Made by a program: the position numbers and the translations under genes. A stretch of DNA of 33,563 nt from a virus: IMG/VR virus record IMGVR_UViG_3300009168_000039, positions 1 to 33,563 of that record; one strand, given 5' to 3'. Positions 11,887-33,563 of this stretch are shown here, piece by piece. Each line of letters starts with the position of its first letter. Position 1 is the first letter of the stretch. The notes beneath the pieces were generated by a model. The model was not told where the DNA came from, searched no databases, and saw nothing but the letters and a program-made list of their open reading frames with translations.

Positions 11887-12780
11887 TTAAGCAACTGAAG
11901 GGTCATAAAGATTTAAAACTCCAAGTGTATTGTATACACCAGAGTCAAACATACCTACAATTGTAAGATTAATTAAACCCTTCTTTGCATCTGTGTACGG
12001 ATCAACTATAATTTCAAGTCCACCCCATTGACCAACACAAACTTTATTCCAATCAGCAAATGTAATTACTGAAGTATTTTGAGCAGGAACTGCATATGCA
12101 GGATAAGAATTAATCTTACCAGCATCATAAATAGGACCTTGATTAGTCATCTTTGCAGTTGTACTAAGATAAGCACGTGTTGCAGGAGTAACAACATAAG
12201 CAGGTGAAGTAAGCATATAGTCACCTAATGAAGCTTCCATATCTACTAAATTTGTCCAAGTAACATATGTAGTTTTTGAATTTTCATTTGTACTAGGGCA
12301 ATCTGCTAAAACTTGATCAAAAACATCATTTGTTACACAATTCCATACACCATTTACAAGGTTTTGTATAATTCCATTGTATATACCTGGTGATGTTTGA
12401 ACTAAAGTTTCTTTTGAAATAGCTTGTGAGTGTGATACTCTACGAGGAGTCAAAGTTAAACTTGTAGTTGATAAACTTGCAGATGATGCATCTTGATTTT
12501 CAGCAACAAATTTTCCAGTAGATTGTGCCATTGCAGGTACTACAAATTGTCCATTTAAACCACTGAAAAATTGTACACCCAATTGACGTAAGAAAGCTTC
12601 TGCAGGTGATGTAAGAACATCAATCCCACCAAAAACTGTCTTTTCTACAATATCAGTATCAGTTGAAGTTATAATAGGGTCTGCTCTTAATGATGCAGAT
12701 CTACCACTATCAACTGCTTCTTTTAACCAATCTCTAAAGGTTGGTTTTTCTTGTTTTAATATATTTTCCATATTATTCAT
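11887..12780 (-). CDS. Second major capsid protein paralogue without delta domain (297 aa)
   Basis: HK97-fold capsid protein, closely related to the preceding 361-residue one. Shared blocks include RADPIITSTD, SPAEAFLR, APRRVSH/TPRRVSH, QAISKETL, QNLVNGVWNCVTNDVFD, YPAYAVPA and GQWGGLEIIVDPYTDA. It begins at the FRDWL block and lacks the 80-residue charged N-terminal region of its paralogue. It therefore probably has no scaffolding delta domain to be cleaved by the prohead protease. A gap of 21 bases separates the two genes. It could co-assemble with the longer form, occupy special lattice positions, or be a duplicated gene under divergence. Confidence 0.85.
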   Translation of the reverse strand: MNNMENILKQEKPTFRDWLKEAVDSGRSASLRADPIITSTDTDIVEKTVFGGIDVLTSPAEAFLRQLGVQFFSGLNGQFVVPAMAQSTGKFVAENQDASSASLSTTSLTLTPRRVSHSQAISKETLVQTSPGIYNGIIQNLVNGVWNCVTNDVFDQVLADCPSTNENSKTTYVTWTNLVDMEASLGDYMLTSPAYVVTPATRAYLSTTAKMTNQGPIYDAGKINSYPAYAVPAQNTSVITFADWNKVCVGQWGGLEIIVDPYTDAKKGLINLTIVGMFDSGVYNTLGVLNLYDPSVA

Positions 12781-12801: not shown

Positions 12802-13887
12802 TTAAGCATTTGGACACCAAGTAATTCCCTTAGTTTGAAAACATCCTGTGTCAAATAAACCAACAACTGTTAAATTAATAAGTCCTTTATTAGCATCAGT
12901 ATAAGGATCAACTATAATTTCAAGTCCACCCCATTGTCCAACAGCCATCTTTGAGAAATCTCCAAGATACATCATTGTTGAATTTGCAGCAGGAACTGCA
13001 TATGCAGGATAACCCAAAACTGTATTATCAGGACCCCAAATAGGAGCTTGATTTGACATTGTTGCTGTAGTTTTTAAAGTTGCTCTGTTTGCTGGTGTAG
13101 TTACATAATTAACTGAACCAATATTGGTATAAGCTAAACTAGCTTCAAGATTTGCAATTTTTGCATATGTAATACCGGCAGTTTGTCTTTGAGCTGGTGC
13201 ATCACTTTGTAATGTATCAAATACATCATTAGTAACACAATTCCATACACCATTCACAAGATTTTGTAAAATACTTGAATAAATAGTTGGATTTACTTCA
13301 CTTAAAGTTTCTTTAGAAATTGCTTGTGTATGAGATACACGTCTTGGTGCTAAAGTGAGACTTGATGTTGACATACTAGCTGAAGCAGCACCTGTATTTT
13401 CACCAGGAAAAGCTGCAGTATCTTCTGCCATTGAAGGAATAACTAATTGACCATTTAAACCTTGGAAAAATGTTACACCAACTGTACGTAAGAATGCTTC
13501 CGCTGGAGACACCATAATATCTACACCTGCTTTTACAGTTTTATTAATAATTGCAGAATCTGTACTAGTGATTATAGGATCTGCTCTAAATGAAGGAGTT
13601 TTTCCACCATTTGCTACAGATTCAAAAAGCCAATCACGGAATTTAACACCTACTGGTTTTTCATCTTCTGATTTAGTTTCCATAAGATATTCTGCTTCTG
13701 TTTTAGTTTTATTTAAAGCTTCTTGTCTTTCTAAAAGAGCAAGTTCTTCATCAATAGTCTTAATTTTACTATCATTTGCATCCCATTCGGATCTTTGTTC
13801 ATCTGTAAGTGCTTCACTCTTAGTGATTTCTTCCATTTTAGATATAAGGTCTGAACGTTCTGATTTTAAATCATTTATGCGTTTCAT
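12802..13887 (-). CDS. Major capsid protein, HK97 type, with delta domain (361 aa)
   Basis: Residues 1 to about 75 (MKRINDLKSERSDLISKMEEITKSEALTDEQ...) are a charged coiled coil, as in the delta or scaffolding domain of HK97 gp5-type proteins. The mature domain starts near KFRDWLFESV and carries SPAEAFLRTVGVTFFQGLNGQLVIPSMAE and the C-terminal GLEIIVDPYTDA block. The prohead protease encoded just upstream (24-base gap) should remove the delta region. It builds the icosahedral shell. A close paralogue follows immediately. Confidence 0.9.
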   Translation of the reverse strand: MKRINDLKSERSDLISKMEEITKSEALTDEQRSEWDANDSKIKTIDEELALLERQEALNKTKTEAEYLMETKSEDEKPVGVKFRDWLFESVANGGKTPSFRADPIITSTDSAIINKTVKAGVDIMVSPAEAFLRTVGVTFFQGLNGQLVIPSMAEDTAAFPGENTGAASASMSTSSLTLAPRRVSHTQAISKETLSEVNPTIYSSILQNLVNGVWNCVTNDVFDTLQSDAPAQRQTAGITYAKIANLEASLAYTNIGSVNYVTTPANRATLKTTATMSNQAPIWGPDNTVLGYPAYAVPAANSTMMYLGDFSKMAVGQWGGLEIIVDPYTDANKGLINLTVVGLFDTGCFQTKGITWCPNA

Positions 13888-14610: not shown

Positions 14611-15882
14611 TTAAATATTTAAAGAACTATCTTTATTTATTATGTTTGTAGAACTATCTGTTTTACCTGCTATTTGTTCAACTGTTAAATAATTTCCAGG
14701 AATATAATGTTTATCTCCCTCTGGATATGTAGAAAATCCTTCAAGTTTTGCTACATCATTTATAGTTGCTACACCCATACCAGTCATAGTCTTTAAATAT
14801 GCTGATCTTGTTGCTGCATCCAATTCAACCATTGACATTGTATTAAATTCTATAGATATTCCACCTAATCTTTCTTCAGTTGTTAAAAGTTTATGTTCCA
14901 TTTCTTGTCTATATAATCTTGCGATTGCTGCAATTGCATTTATATAAAAGTTTTTTTGAAGTTGTTCAACATTATTAAATTTTGAAGCTTCAAACAATCC
15001 AACCATTTCAGGAGGAATACCAAAAAGTGATGATATCTGACTTGCATTAAATTTAAAAGTTTCAATGAAGACTGCATCAGCAAAATTCATTGACATATCT
15101 TGTAATTCGGAATTTGGTGGTAATGTAATCATCTTACCAGCATTAATTGCACCAACATATTTCTTATTAAATTCTTCAATTGCTTCAAGAAGGGCCTTTT
15201 GATTTGCACCAGTGACAGTAGATTTAATAGCCTTAGGTGATACTGCATTATTTTTATAGAAGTTTTCAAGTGTTTGAATACCCTGATAAGAAGAACTTAA
15301 GTTCATTTTTAAGGCCTCAAGTGCACTTACCCCCCATATTCCATCCTTTGTAATACCTTTAAAGTGTAATATTTCACTTGCATTTATCTTTTGTTCTGTA
15401 TTTTCATCAATTTTTATTTTATAATATAATTCATCATTTATAATATTATATCCTATTACTCTTGAAGGCGGAATAAGAACTAATGATTTTAACTTTCCAT
15501 TACCATTTCTATAAATTCTTGCAAAAGAATTACCTTTAAGATTTCTCCAGTATTCTAGAGCACTAAAAAAAGTTTGTTGATTTGTCCAGTTATTTGGATT
15601 ATAGTGTAGAATTGGATATCTATAATCTTCTTTATCTACCGTACGTCCCTGTCCTTTATCAGAATAAATATTTAATGGCATACGTGATAATGTTTCAGAA
15701 AGAATTTTAATACAGGTAAAAAGAGTAGATATCTTTTCTGCATTTTCTATATTAAATTCTGCATTTGTTGAGCCTATCATTGTTGGCATTATGGAATCTA
15801 TCCACACTTTCTCAGTTCCTAATATAAAATTGGGATTATTCCAAGCAGATCTTAAATTTTGGGTAAATATTTTTAATGACAT
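14611..15882 (-). CDS. Portal protein, HK97 family (423 aa)
   Basis: Characteristic blocks are ISTLFTCIKILSETLSRMPLNIY (residues about 50-72), the YPILHYNPNNWTNQQTFFSAL segment, GNSFARIYRN, and ILHFKGITKDGIWGVSALEALK. FGIPPEMVG appears later. These match HK97-type portal proteins, which form the dodecameric ring at the capsid vertex for DNA entry and exit. Length is normal for the family. It is followed by the prohead protease and preceded by an AT-rich leader with a GAATATATATA box. Confidence 0.9.
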   Translation of the reverse strand: MSLKIFTQNLRSAWNNPNFILGTEKVWIDSIMPTMIGSTNAEFNIENAEKISTLFTCIKILSETLSRMPLNIYSDKGQGRTVDKEDYRYPILHYNPNNWTNQQTFFSALEYWRNLKGNSFARIYRNGNGKLKSLVLIPPSRVIGYNIINDELYYKIKIDENTEQKINASEILHFKGITKDGIWGVSALEALKMNLSSSYQGIQTLENFYKNNAVSPKAIKSTVTGANQKALLEAIEEFNKKYVGAINAGKMITLPPNSELQDMSMNFADAVFIETFKFNASQISSLFGIPPEMVGLFEASKFNNVEQLQKNFYINAIAAIARLYRQEMEHKLLTTEERLGGISIEFNTMSMVELDAATRSAYLKTMTGMGVATINDVAKLEGFSTYPEGDKHYIPGNYLTVEQIAGKTDSSTNIINKDSSLNI

Positions 15883-16043: not shown

Positions 16044-16421
16044 TTATAACGATTCAAAATCAAACTTTAATGCATCTGCACAAACTATATTATGATTCAT
16101 AATAATATATGCTTCTGGAGTAGGTGATAGAAGAGTATATAATAAGCGTTTTTTCATCTCTTTTACATTATCTGCCATTAATTCTACACCATATATAGTT
16201 GAAAGTGATTGTAAATCTCCGTGTCCTTGAAGAATTTTACGATGTAAAATTTCTACTAAAAAATTACCATTTCCTGCAGCAGGATCACAAAAAGTTTTAG
16301 TAGGATCTATAAAGACTTCAAATGGAAGTTTATCAAGCATTTCAGAGACAAGTTTAGGAGGTGTAAAACACTCTGCAGTATTTTTTTTTCTTTGTTGTCT
16401 TTTATTTTCTAATTCTGTCAT
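16044..16421 (-). CDS. N6-adenine DNA methyltransferase, SAM-binding half (motifs X, I-III; 125 aa)
   Basis: Residues 16-29 (AECFTPPKLVSEML) correspond to motif X. CDPAAGNGNF (45-54) is the SAM-binding motif I, YGVEL is motif II, and the C-terminal NIVCADALKFDF is motif III. The protein stops exactly where the NPPF motif IV would follow in an Eco57I/gamma-like enzyme. That part is encoded by the gene immediately upstream, and the two overlap by one base (TAATG). Together they should form one two-chain adenine methyltransferase, possibly protecting phage DNA from host restriction. No restriction nuclease lies next to it. Confidence 0.82.
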   Translation of the reverse strand: MTELENKRQQRKKNTAECFTPPKLVSEMLDKLPFEVFIDPTKTFCDPAAGNGNFLVEILHRKILQGHGDLQSLSTIYGVELMADNVKEMKKRLLYTLLSPTPEAYIIMNHNIVCADALKFDFESL

Positions 16422-17257
16422 TAATAGTATTTAGGTATATTTTTTTCTATAAAATTTATTTCTTCTTGTGTTAATTCAAAATATTTATAAAGTTTTTCAT
16501 CTGTCCATTCTTGTGAAAAATCCAACCAAGGTACAACCTTTAATTCTCCTCTATCTAAATGTACATTAACTTTATATATTGATAAGCATGCTCTTGCAAA
16601 ATTTGTTTTTAAATATTTAAAAAAGTTATTAGCGTCATTTTCTTTATAAAATGATACATAAAATTTTATATTACCAGATCTTCCAGTTCTTATTGTCCGT
16701 TCAACTTTAGTATTATTTGGGTAAAATGTATAAAAATTATTATCTAACATTTTATCTATATCTTTAAAATTAACATTTCCTCGTATTATTGCAATATTAA
16801 CAAAATAATCTCTTACATGTTTATTAAGATGATTTAAAATATTATCTTTATTACAAAGTTGTTGTATATTGCATTTAAATTTAGTAAAAATAGGGTCGCC
16901 CCATTTATTAACCTCATTTAAACTTGAAACCATTATAGTTTTTTTATTAATTTTATCTATTATTTGTATATTATTATTAATTATGGATTTATCAATATAT
17001 GTTATAGCAAAAGGAAGAAAGGCGCCGACATTAAATAATGAGTTACCATTAAAAAATGTTATATTATTAATATGTTTTTCAATTATATTATTAACTGATT
17101 CGTATTTTCTTTTAATTCCTTTTTCATCTAAAAATTGACTAGATGGAGATATCCATAAAATATATTGTTTTGATATATTATACGCTAATTCTAAAAAAGA
17201 TAAATGTAACCCACCTTTAAACGGTGGATTTCCCACTACACAATCAAACTTTGGCAT
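16421..17257 (-). CDS. N6-adenine DNA methyltransferase, catalytic and target-recognition half (NPPF; 278 aa)
   Basis: The protein begins almost at motif IV: MPKFDCVVGNPPF, with NPPF at residues 10-13. NPPF is the catalytic motif of N6-adenine methyltransferases. The body (ELAYNISKQYILWISPSSQFLDEKG, FLPFAITYIDK) matches the later catalytic motifs. The basic C-terminal half is a likely target-recognition region (VERTIRTGRSGNIKFYVSFY). It has no SAM-binding DPAAG motif, which is supplied by the next gene. It lies 19 bases after the large terminase stop. The gene order (catalytic half first, SAM half second) is reversed relative to a single-chain gamma-type enzyme. Confidence 0.82.
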   Translation of the reverse strand: MPKFDCVVGNPPFKGGLHLSFLELAYNISKQYILWISPSSQFLDEKGIKRKYESVNNIIEKHINNITFFNGNSLFNVGAFLPFAITYIDKSIINNNIQIIDKINKKTIMVSSLNEVNKWGDPIFTKFKCNIQQLCNKDNILNHLNKHVRDYFVNIAIIRGNVNFKDIDKMLDNNFYTFYPNNTKVERTIRTGRSGNIKFYVSFYKENDANNFFKYLKTNFARACLSIYKVNVHLDRGELKVVPWLDFSQEWTDEKLYKYFELTQEEINFIEKNIPKYY

Positions 17258-17276: not shown

Positions 17277-18977
17277 TTATGTTTGTGTTTTCATCCATTC
17301 TGTATAAGAATTTATACCCTTTATTTCATCTCCAAATTTATAATTTATCCAACCACCTATTGCCATAGCCAAAGCAACACAACCATCAACAGCATCAAGT
17401 TGTTTATTTTTTATAATCTTAATATTAGCATTATTATCAACCCATAATACAATATTTGAAAAATTCCACAATAGACAAGGATTTTTCATTCTAATATTAT
17501 TATTATAAACCATTTCTTCTAACATCTTTAAAGGTGCATTAAAACACATAGCACTTTGTATAAAAGGTTCACAATTAAAACCATAATCCTTTAAATTTGA
17601 TACTAATAATTTTGAATTTGGTAAATCATATTGAATAGAAACTATATTATAGATTTTATTTAATTCCACTATTTTGTTAAATATAAGATCATAATCAATA
17701 GTTTTTGACTTACATTTTGTAATATAACAATCAAATATCCAATTTGAAAGATCTTTTCCATTCTTCCTGATAACATTTCCAGGCATATCTGCCATCCAAT
17801 AATAAGGAATAGCATAAGAAATTTCTTCTCCTGGTATATAAACTACTATAGAAGTTAAATCTGTATGCTTTGATAAGTCCATTCCTATATAAATATCCTT
17901 ACCATAAAATTGTGTTTCATTAAAATCTTCGAATAGAGGAAGCAGATATCCTTCAGGTATCCAAACATCAGGTGTATCATAAAATATATTAAGGTGTTTT
18001 GTAATAAAGAAATATTGATCTGCAAATGAGTGTTTAGCAGAATTATATGCTATAAGTAAATCATCTAATGTATTTATAATTCCTAAACTTGGATTTGCTT
18101 TCACCCAACATTCAGAATTTGATAAATCATCTTCAGGATCAGGTTGAAATAACATTGAAAGTACACTATCATCTTCTATATTACCATCTAAAATGTTTTG
18201 GTGGTACTTCAAATACTCATTACAGAATCCATTATTCTTTGCACCTGCTGTAGATATAAGAAATATCATAGGATTTAGGCGAGCACCTATTCCTGTTTTT
18301 ATTGCTTGATATATTGTGTTGTCTGTATATCCGTGTATTTCATCTAGGATTGCCATTGAGGGTGAATAACCTTCTAGTCTCGCTGAATCAACAGGTGAAA
18401 ATATTTGAATAAACCCTTGTTTTTCTATATCTTTAAATATGATTCTACTTCTTTGACCTATTAAACGATTACGTAACTCGGGTGTATGAATCACCATATT
18501 TTTTGCAAAGTTTAATGCTATAGAAGATTGTTGTGAAGTGTTTGCAAGAAGAATTGATTGTGGAACTGCAACCCCATCAAATAACATCCCATACATTTGG
18601 AGAGCAGCAGCAAATGAGGTTTTACCATTTTTGCGGGCCATAAAGAGAAAAGCTTCTCGTATAACTCTCTTTTCTGAATCACTACTATGGTAGAATCCAA
18701 AGGCAAAGGCAAGGAAGAAACATTGCCAGGATAACAAGGAAAATTGTTCATATTTGTTTTTTAATTCTATATTTAAAAAAGAAAAGAATTTAAATACTTT
18801 ATCTACTTTATCAACTCTATATAAGTACTTATCTTTTTGAAGTAGCATTCTAGAATAAAGATTAACTACTTTCTTAATATACTTACCAACTATAATTGAA
18901 CCATCATTAACTTCTTCAATATAAGATTGTACTTTTTCCCAACATGAATCTGAATATAGTTGTGAATTTAATCTCAT
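17277..18977 (-). CDS. terL: Terminase large subunit (566 aa)
   Basis: DNA-packaging motor with an N-terminal ATPase and a C-terminal nuclease domain. Visible motifs: Walker A ARKNGKTS at residues 114-121, Walker B MAILDEIH at 208-215, coupling motif FLISTAGAKNNG near 238-249, first nuclease Asp in YIGMDLSKHTDLTSIV (D366), and a late acidic DAVDGCVALAMAIG. This is the HK97-like (Terminase_1) family and normal length. Its start shares one base with the small terminase stop (TAATG). Confidence 0.93.
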   Translation of the reverse strand: MRLNSQLYSDSCWEKVQSYIEEVNDGSIIVGKYIKKVVNLYSRMLLQKDKYLYRVDKVDKVFKFFSFLNIELKNKYEQFSLLSWQCFFLAFAFGFYHSSDSEKRVIREAFLFMARKNGKTSFAAALQMYGMLFDGVAVPQSILLANTSQQSSIALNFAKNMVIHTPELRNRLIGQRSRIIFKDIEKQGFIQIFSPVDSARLEGYSPSMAILDEIHGYTDNTIYQAIKTGIGARLNPMIFLISTAGAKNNGFCNEYLKYHQNILDGNIEDDSVLSMLFQPDPEDDLSNSECWVKANPSLGIINTLDDLLIAYNSAKHSFADQYFFITKHLNIFYDTPDVWIPEGYLLPLFEDFNETQFYGKDIYIGMDLSKHTDLTSIVVYIPGEEISYAIPYYWMADMPGNVIRKNGKDLSNWIFDCYITKCKSKTIDYDLIFNKIVELNKIYNIVSIQYDLPNSKLLVSNLKDYGFNCEPFIQSAMCFNAPLKMLEEMVYNNNIRMKNPCLLWNFSNIVLWVDNNANIKIIKNKQLDAVDGCVALAMAIGGWINYKFGDEIKGINSYTEWMKTQT

Positions 18978-19318
18978 TATAATTTAGAAATTTCATCAAA
19001 CTCATCTTGCTCTTTAAGTTCTACAAGTTTTAACATCATCCTATCTTTTCTAGATATTCCAAGTTTAGATGCAGATTGATTAATATTTCTAAGAGCCATT
19101 TGATAAATATTAAAGGCAGGATTCATTTTAGTTGTTGTAAATCCATTACCTGTTGTAATGTCTATAACACAACCTTTTTCATCTAAATCCTTTTTCATTT
19201 GATTTGCATACTCAATATTTTCAAGTAATAAATCAATCTGATAGTCATCAACATCAGGATCATAATTACCTTTCTTTTTAAGATGCTTAATAATGTCTTT
19301 TCTAAGAGTGTTTGCCAT
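18977..19318 (-). CDS. terS: Terminase small subunit, P27-like (113 aa)
   Basis: The C-terminal half (MNPAFNIYQMALRNINQSASKLGISRKDRMMLKL) matches the P27-type small terminase pattern, in which NPxxxIYxxAL is followed by a ...LGISPxxR-like helix. It recognises the packaging site and recruits the large subunit. It directly precedes the large terminase gene with a TAATG overlap. The intergenic region before it (19319-19566) holds promoter-like boxes and is the obvious candidate for a packaging or late-promoter site. Confidence 0.85.
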   Translation of the reverse strand: MANTLRKDIIKHLKKKGNYDPDVDDYQIDLLLENIEYANQMKKDLDEKGCVIDITTGNGFTTTKMNPAFNIYQMALRNINQSASKLGISRKDRMMLKLVELKEQDEFDEISKL

Positions 19319-31986: not shown

Positions 31987-33563
31987 TTATTGAATTTTAT
32001 TTATTGTATAAACTTGATTATCAGAATCAAGATATTGAACATAAATAAAGTTGTTAGTACAGCCGTCATATGTTCCACCTATTTTCTTAAATGATGCTGG
32101 AACTGCTATTCCTGTTGAATTTTCTTGATGTATAGCAAGAGATACTACACCTAATAATGCTCCAGTTGTTGATACTGTAATTGCACCGGTTAATGGAGCT
32201 GCTATAGTTCCATAAACATATCCAAGTGTTTTATCAAATCTCATTTCGGTTGCAGTAGAAGAATTAACTGCTGATATTTTTGAAATTAAGTTTGCATTAG
32301 CTGAAGCATTGGTTGTATAAGCTCCTAAAGCAGTATTTACCGAAGCATTAGTTGTTGTTAATCCTAATGAGGCATTTATAGTTGTAATAATTAAATTAAC
32401 TGAAGCATTAGTTGCATAAGGATATAAAGCACTATTAACTGAAGCATTAGTTGCATAAGCTAACATCGAAGTATCAAAATCAACAATTGATAGTTTATCA
32501 TTATGTGCGTGTCCTATTAATGAATAATTGGATACGGCGGCATTAACTGAAGCATTAGTTGCATAAAGTCCAAATGAAGCATTCTTTGCAAAAGCTGCAG
32601 TATTAATAGAAGCGTTAGTTGCAAAAGCTGCAATATTTATAGAAGCATTAGTTGCATAAGCTAACATTGAAGTATCAAAAGCAGTAATACTTAATTTATC
32701 ATTGTGCGCATGTCCTATTAATGAATAATTGGATATAGTAGCATTAACCGAAGCATTTAAAGTTGATAATGATCCATCAACATATGTTTGAGAAACACCA
32801 CTAATTGCTGCAATACTTGCATCCTGTTTTACTGAATAAGTGAAATCAGTCTTAAGTCCAATGCTTGCATCTTGTTTAACATCATAAGTGAAATCAGTTT
32901 TTAATCCTAAAGAAGCATTTATAGTTGCTATAACTAATCCAACTGAAGCATTAGTTGCAAAAGCTTTATCTGCAGTTACTAATGCTGTAATACTTGCATC
33001 CTGTTTTACTGAATAAGTAAAATCAGTTTTAAGTCCAATGCTTGCATCTTGTTTAATTGAATAAGTAAAGTCAGTCTTTAATCCTAAAGAAGCATTTATA
33101 GTTGCTATAACTAAATTAACACTTGCATTAGTTGAATAAGAGTATAAAGCACTATTAATTGAAGCATTAAGTGTTGATAAACTTCCATCAACATAAGATT
33201 GAGAAACACCACTAATTGCTGCAATTGAAGCATCTTGTTTAATTGAATATGTAAAGTCAGTTTTAGTTGCTAAACTTCCATCAACATAATCTTGAGAAAC
33301 ACCACTACCAGCTATAGTACTAACATCAAGTTTTCCTGAATTCCATACATATCCAGTACCTAAAGAAGCTTCTTTAAGATATAAGTTAAGTGTATCATTA
33401 ATTGAAACATTAGTTGTATAATTTAATAATGAACTATCTACATAATACTTATTGACTGCATCTGAAGAATCAGAAGGAGAACCAAGACCAAGAATTCGTT
33501 GATTTTTAAGAGATATAGAACCATCGATTATTGTAGTACCCACAACGTGGAAAAACGTTGAAG
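31987..33563 (-). CDS. Large repetitive tail fibre protein, C-terminal part (continuation of the gene starting at 2065)
   Basis: This is the 3' part of the wrap-around fibre gene; the ATG at 33543 is internal and should not be taken as the start. It contains many short repeats: (T)NASVN, KTDFTYSIKQDASI, SQTYVDGSLSTLNASVN and IGHAHNDKLSI-DFDTSMLAYATNAS. It also contains YLKEASLGTGYVWNSGKLD, shared with the 781-residue fibre. The C-terminal 80 residues are non-repetitive (TGALLGVVSLAIHQENSTG..., YVQYLDSDNQVYTINKIQ) and probably form the tip domain. Only after joining both window ends does the gene have its full length. Confidence 0.85.
   Translation of the reverse strand, partial: STFFHVVGTTIIDGSISLKNQRILGLGSPSDSSDAVNKYYVDSSLLNYTTNVSINDTLNLYLKEASLGTGYVWNSGKLDVSTIAGSGVSQDYVDGSLATKTDFTYSIKQDASIAAISGVSQSYVDGSLSTLNASINSALYSYSTNASVNLVIATINASLGLKTDFTYSIKQDASIGLKTDFTYSVKQDASITALVTADKAFATNASVGLVIATINASLGLKTDFTYDVKQDASIGLKTDFTYSVKQDASIAAISGVSQTYVDGSLSTLNASVNATISNYSLIGHAHNDKLSITAFDTSMLAYATNASINIAAFATNASINTAAFAKNASFGLYATNASVNAAVSNYSLIGHAHNDKLSIVDFDTSMLAYATNASVNSALYPYATNASVNLIITTINASLGLTTTNASVNTALGAYTTNASANANLISKISAVNSSTATEMRFDKTLGYVYGTIAAPLTGAITVSTTGALLGVVSLAIHQENSTGIAVPASFKKIGGTYDGCTNNFIYVQYLDSDNQVYTINKIQ
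33441..33563. repeat. Terminal direct repeat (circular assembly overlap), right copy
   Basis: Identical to bases 1-123. Codon phase in this copy matches that of the left copy in the same fibre gene, so the two ends join without frameshift. Confidence 0.93.

Follow-up and report, generated by a model that had tools for sequence, protein, structure and literature searches.

Organization of the locus

The window, that is, the whole 33,563-base stretch of a virus contig that was analysed, contains a single ORF A and a single ORF B, which carry between them the motifs of one adenine methyltransferase. They lie between the terminase and portal genes, as the first-pass annotation had stated, and the features of the region are as follows.

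14611-15882: portal gene, neighbour of A and B
16044-16421, minus strand: ORF B, 125 aa, the putative S-adenosylmethionine (SAM)-binding half with motifs X, I, II and III
16260..16286, minus strand: SAM motif I, DPAAGNGNF (B residues 46-54)
16359..16367, minus strand: motif X-like FTP (B residues 19-21), kept among standalone B
16419..16423, minus strand: TAATG stop/start overlap of A and B, a likely site of termination-reinitiation
16421-17257, minus strand: ORF A, 278 aa, the putative catalytic half from motif IV onward plus the target-recognition domain (TRD), without a SAM-binding half
17219..17230, minus strand: motif IV, the catalytic tetrapeptide NPPF (A residues 10-13), read from the sequence
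17277-19318: terminase genes, neighbours of A and B

ORF A begins with MPKFDCVVGNPPF, with no sequence ahead of motif IV, and its residues N10, P11 and P12 are invariant across relatives. ORF B carries, in order, ECFTPP (X-like FTPP), FCDPAAGNGNF (I), GVEL (II), VCADALKFD (III) and VCADALKFDFESL, and its stop codon falls nine residues past the motif III aspartate. The split point lies between motifs III and IV, and the two ORFs together hold exactly one motif set, the N-terminal half (N-half) that is known from relatives being missing here; placed end to end in the hypothetical order B-A, they read as one ordinary methyltransferase. Within TAATG, the final A of the ORF A stop codon is also the first base of the ORF B ATG, an overlap of one base. 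Both ORFs, their motifs and the junction were found as the first-pass annotation had claimed, namely two overlapping half-genes in swapped order. We also weighed a frameshift that would join A and B of the window into one product and rejected it, as no slippery sequence is seen in the overlap and reinitiation at TAATG is explanation enough.

The neighbours also include an HNH nuclease and a serine integrase, which together with the portal and terminase genes indicate that the window virus is probably a temperate phage. Elsewhere in the window, the adjacent major-capsid-like ORFs at 11887-12780 and 12802-13887 (minus strand) share 58% identity over 290 residues (E 1e-113), a duplication of a capsid-like gene in which the first-translated copy has an additional N-terminal part. 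The unit of a 48-bp tandem repeat at 1691-1923 (4.9 copies, 94% match) resembles repeats at 32800-33134 inside a fibre-like ORF (31987-33543) at the opposite contig end, and this repeat may be a piece of a repeated tail-fibre sequence.

Family recognition and class assignment

Pfam recognized ORF B as N6_Mtase (1.4e-5, above the cut-off) and gave only a sub-threshold match to Eco57I for ORF A. The profile of phrog_11371 (383 aa) matched ORF A over positions 3-248 (8.5e-45) and ORF B over positions 283-383 (8e-19), and phrog_21201 also matched ORF B (3e-19). As A aligns with the front and B with the back of phrog_11371, fused members in the same order exist within one family. The family models built in this analysis recognized ORF A at 1.1e-78 and ORF B at 4.8e-48, with the window among the model members; the PHROG matches, by which both halves are likewise recognized, are independent of these models. 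The PADLOC and Pfam matches across the family were to N6_Mtase and Eco57I/type II gamma models. Across all loci there were 2,779 ORFs with a length of 80 aa or more; NPP[FY] was present within the first 20 residues of 72 of them, and all 72 were A-family members; shuffled ORFs gave an expectation of 0.45, and chance is thereby ruled out as the source of NPP[FY] near the ORF start.

The motifs of the pair are those of the gamma class, DPAAGNGNF in ORF B having the form DPxxGxG of motif I and NPPF in ORF A the form NPP[FY] of motif IV. The gamma-class succession X-I-III-IV-TRD in one chain is absent, as the halves are apart and the gene order is reversed, and a TaqI/CamA-like catalytic half with its TRD was seen in the fused relative of locus L085, not in the window pair itself. 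The gene order of the window is instead that of the beta class (IV...X-I-III), which occurs as a single chain in L085, Aeh1 and CC2; beta-lineage sequence and a beta-type TRD were not found, the family matches being to N6_Mtase/Eco57I/type II gamma models and the TRD of L085 being gamma-like. Nor do the C5 motifs and the variable-region split of the M.AquI type occur, since the motifs are those of amino-methyltransferases and the split falls between motifs III and IV. Judging from these motifs, the window pair would work like a gamma enzyme, yet it is not a standard gamma member.

Structural models were compared by VIA-align. The natural swapped fusion of L085, whose identity to the window is only about 12% (A) and 36% (B), was predicted as one methyltransferase fold (pLDDT 91.3, pTM 0.89). 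The beta-class enzymes MboIIA (1g60; Z 13.1, rmsd 3.0, 156 residues) and RsrI (1eg2; Z 11.8, rmsd 4.1, 175 residues) are collinear with this model across the whole core, from model residue 1 to 406-419. The gamma-class TaqI, CamA, BseCI and BrxX align with its A part only (model 1 to 273-286), CamA with Z 12.5 and rmsd 5.0 over 279 residues (model 1-286), and TaqI residues 96-412 with model 1-273 at Z 11.8 and rmsd 4.1 over 253 residues. In its predicted structure, the swapped fusion therefore has the beta-class order and a gamma-class (TaqI/CamA) catalytic-TRD half. The combination of beta-class order with gamma-type motifs that had been proposed for the window is in this way borne out on a relative, through structural alignment to both classes.

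Architectures among relatives

The family models of A and B were run over all gathered viral and bacterial loci, and the two halves were found to recur across dozens of unrelated phages; over viruses and bacteria together, the relatives number in the hundreds. Fusions in the swapped order A-B are encoded by the Aeromonas phages Aeh1 (ORF084c, 415 aa) and CC2 (CC2_106, 383 aa) and by L022, L023, L027, L055 and L085. Split A-then-B pairs are present in the cultured Prochlorococcus phage P-SSM2, where PSSM2_036 and PSSM2_037 overlap and are both annotated as hypothetical, as well as in many cyanophage contigs and others. Most A-then-B neighbours overlap, and the junction of L114, TAATGACTGAA, is near-identical to that of the window, TAATGACAGAA. 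The A closest to that of the window (45%) is found in L096, where the halves are separate genes in the normal order B-then-A, and L079, L097, L099 and L102 encode a single B-A chain in normal order with no additional B. Related phages thus hold both the fused and the unswapped versions for which the first-pass annotation had advised a search. It had also named, as an outcome that would speak against a split enzyme, a complete methyltransferase in relatives with one half as an unrelated gene; complete single-chain relatives do exist, and they are made of the same two halves, so that neither half is an unrelated gene.

Besides these forms, an N-half joined to A and followed by B was seen with the N-half intact, altered or eroded, in a graded series from intact to lost, and in S-CAM7 and the Lak phages a degenerate front half on A is accompanied by a B further downstream. 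Some phage proteins join a ResIII helicase to N-half-A, and L021 adds a GIY-YIG-type MUG113 domain. Several A genes accompany a single B in L009, L100, L113 and L114, and the L112 record (G001; locus L186) contains five N-half-A units and then one B, giving arrays of two to five. The A copies of an array share 18-38% identity in the middle, TRD-bearing part versus 34-66% over the first 45 residues, which suggests that several target specificities could be served by one B.

The closest relative of the window B (about 64-68% identical) lies near the contig start of L012 (462-1581), directly behind an ORF resembling an HNH/NUMOD homing endonuclease, a kind of insertion that can split phage genes. 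L005, L035, L042, L045 and L047 contain an intact B with no recognizable A and form their own clade (99*) on the B tree; A was not found in ten B-only records in a search with a weak control, and the B of these five loci may pair with a host partner or an undetected one.

Proposed division of labour between the two halves

An intact GxG in motif I is present in 178 of the 185 distinct standalone B domains and in all seven B at the C-terminal end of fusions, as against just 25 of the 116 N-halves attached to A, 15 of these 25 being without motif X. Relatives often combine a large subunit, in which the motif I of the SAM-like N-half is altered or lost, with a separate intact B beside it. Among the loci fetched by A alone, a separate B adjoins 23 of the 26 distinct viral A units that lack an N-half, with the order A-B in 19 and B-A in four. 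Over all loci, B is present for 34 of 41 such units (seven as A-B fusions), and three of the seven exceptions are at contig ends; this count takes in loci fetched through B, and the former is fairer. Records with an N-half-less A and without B include L130 (31.7 kb) and L162 (36.7 kb), which are possibly fragments.

A decayed or broken methyltransferase gene, or an artefact of assembly, could be suspected, as frameshifts often underlie split genes in AT-rich phage contigs and the record is metagenomic. We regard this as extremely improbable: a frameshift cannot swap halves, the motifs are intact, and the arrangement recurs in unrelated records and in cultured phages. The 26 split cyanophage pairs have a median dN/dS of 0.106 for A and 0.104 for B and are under purifying selection. 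The misassembly that had been raised as a possible refutation is excluded by the recurrence in many independent records, including the near-identical junction of L114.

Combined with the above analysis, A and B are very likely two subunits of one N6-adenine DNA methyltransferase, in which B would bind SAM and A would provide catalysis and target recognition. A would be translated first and then B, through stop-start coupling. On the one hand, B could bind S-adenosylmethionine via motifs X and I-III and contribute strands 1-3 of the Rossmann sheet; on the other hand, A could complete the sheet and bring in the catalytic NPPF together with the TRD. We infer that the chains assemble into one gamma-type enzyme, that B uses SAM, and that the enzyme methylates phage DNA and probably host DNA too, for which protection against restriction would be the simplest role. 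Regarding the obligate two-chain enzyme proposed earlier, the co-occurrence and the division of motif I make the two ORFs halves of one methyltransferase that are very probably interdependent.

Alternatively, B could be an accessory or regulatory subunit rather than the SAM half of the A site, with A obtaining its cofactor site otherwise. Bacterial and many phage B adjoin a large subunit with a folded N-half of its own, and in L010, where an eroded N-half-A is accompanied by a separate B, the decayed N-half and A are still predicted as a complete gamma-type fold (pLDDT 91.6), to which CamA aligns with Z 19.4 and rmsd 3.4 over 328 residues (residues 2-362), even with motif I gone (IMVMFNLEF at the site). 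However, the A of the window and of tens of relatives has no N-half at all and nothing else in it that completes the fold, motif I is nearly always intact in B alone, and A and B are fused at two places of the tree, with one fused chain predicted to fold as one enzyme. An accessory B is therefore considered improbable, and the two-subunit enzyme with B as its SAM half is preferred.

The bacterial two-subunit form

In bacterial genomes of many phyla (L187-L266), the usual form is B followed by a large subunit whose motif I is replaced by DPxxK[ST]G. L190 (2782-7824) is the sole bacterial locus whose sequence was examined closely; there, B and the large subunit are followed by a gene resembling GIY-YIG and helicase sequences. 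PADLOC labels the large subunit as type II or IIG. Together with the helicase fusions, these features make the bacterial form look like a restriction-modification operon. DPxxK[ST]G is itself conserved in bacteria, with a lysine where SAM enzymes carry glycine. The notion that every N-half without GxG is simply dead was softened for this reason, and the DPxxK[ST]G N-half may be functional. Motif I of M.TaqI likewise deviates from GxG.

Comparison with described methyltransferases

Among known proteins, Aeh1 ORF084c and CC2_106 resemble the window pair in halves and order, and both window proteins match their family, phrog_11371; they are single chains annotated as hypothetical or of unknown function, whereas the window has two chains and a TAATG overlap. 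PSSM2_036 and PSSM2_037 of P-SSM2 are likewise overlapping genes, an A-type with an N-terminal GNPPY and then a B-type, though this A is shorter (193 aa) and beyond about 100 aa is not alignable to the window A.

M.TaqI, CamA, M.BseCI and BrxX/PglX, with which the fused relative aligns in its catalytic half and TRD, differ from the window in having X-I-II-III-IV-TRD on a single chain. The fused relative is collinear with M.MboIIA, M.RsrI, M.BceJIV and CcrM, with the motif IV half first and the SAM half last, but its catalytic-TRD half is gamma-type, unlike theirs, so the beta-like order of the A-B family looks like an independent arrival. A jumbo-phage survey mentions a circularly permuted M.EcoKI-like DNA adenine methylase in phages (PMC7824862); by its description this belongs to the same broad enzyme clade as A and B, and the part of the survey that treats it mentions no split or shared-subunit form of the kind found in the A/B family. 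M.AquI and M.EcoHK31I are natural two-polypeptide C5 methyltransferases (PMC3404938). The analogy to M.AquI that had been drawn for the window holds for the two polypeptides and is otherwise loose, because M.AquI is a cytosine-C5 enzyme in normal order and the split in both enzymes falls inside or beyond the variable region, as opposed to between the SAM half and the catalytic half (PMC3404938). In a limited search of the open-licence literature, neither the split gamma-type pair, nor a single B accompanied by several A, nor the two-subunit form of bacteria was found described; for split adenine methyltransferases the same literature gave C5 or engineered cases only, a weak sign of absence.

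Evolutionary history

The A tree (111 rows, from a quick search) is unrooted and has many weak forks. In this tree, the A-B fusions require two separate changes, each forced by starred branches, and the Aeromonas fusions are sister to the split A of the L100 array. L096 is the nearest neighbour of the window A, and both fall in a clade (support 85) together with the single-chain normal-order L097 and L099 and the split swapped L098. The B tree has few columns, is unrooted, and does not separate the neighbours of the window. Given the placement of the fusions and of the window clade on the A tree, the permuted single chains plausibly derive from split A-B pairs. The natural A-B fusions are the sole true circular permutants. 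Gene order by itself is a minor trait, because L096 is split as B then A and B likewise precedes the large subunit in the bacterial operons. The window had been put forward as a possible intermediate of circular permutation; it is not singular in this respect, being one member of a two-subunit family that is widespread and comprises split, fused, duplicated and eroded forms.

As to why the split is kept, a modular methyltransferase can be put forward tentatively, with chances a little short of even: one B would serve several interchangeable A, a phage or cell would alter or extend its methylation specificities through additional A genes alone, and permuted single chains would arise by local A-B fusion, at least twice. 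Provided that several A do share one B, the family would also offer an off-the-shelf modular platform for constructing methyltransferases against target sequences of choice.

That permutation proceeds by way of duplication was proposed earlier, and permuted examples exist among the C5 enzymes (PMC5944983). Applied here, a tandem BA-BA would have lost its first B and last A to leave A-B, an origin that is compatible with two-subunit function. It would accord with the tandem N-half-A copies of L112 (five plus one B), with the occurrence of both N-half-A then B and A then B, with the graded erosion of the N-half, and with the leader of A in L009, which matches the N-half/A junction of L010 at 80% identity over 97 nt. 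Nevertheless, the tree is unrooted and B poorly resolved, the L009/L010 likeness is readable in either direction, and the two-subunit form with B and a large subunit is already common in bacteria, so that a new tandem duplication is a less simple explanation than a change of order within a two-gene operon. We consider an origin by duplication rather unlikely.

The motif orders of DNA methyltransferases (alpha, beta and gamma) have so far been argued mainly from finished enzymes. The A/B family includes single-chain normal, split normal, split swapped, duplicated, eroded and permuted members, some of them in cultured phages, so the proposed routes of rearrangement become testable in the laboratory.

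The stretch common to L009, whose A has no N-half, and L010 spans the start of A in the former and the N-half-A junction in the latter. About 40 nt ahead of the ATG are N-half codons in L010 and contain the ribosome-binding-like AGAAGGAGA, a likeness compatible with loss of the N-half or with the opposite change. At L010:3960-4000, AGAAGGAGA lies within the N-half/A frame just ahead of an internal ATG of A, and the same stretch precedes both A genes of L009 as their leader; L010 may also produce A by itself.
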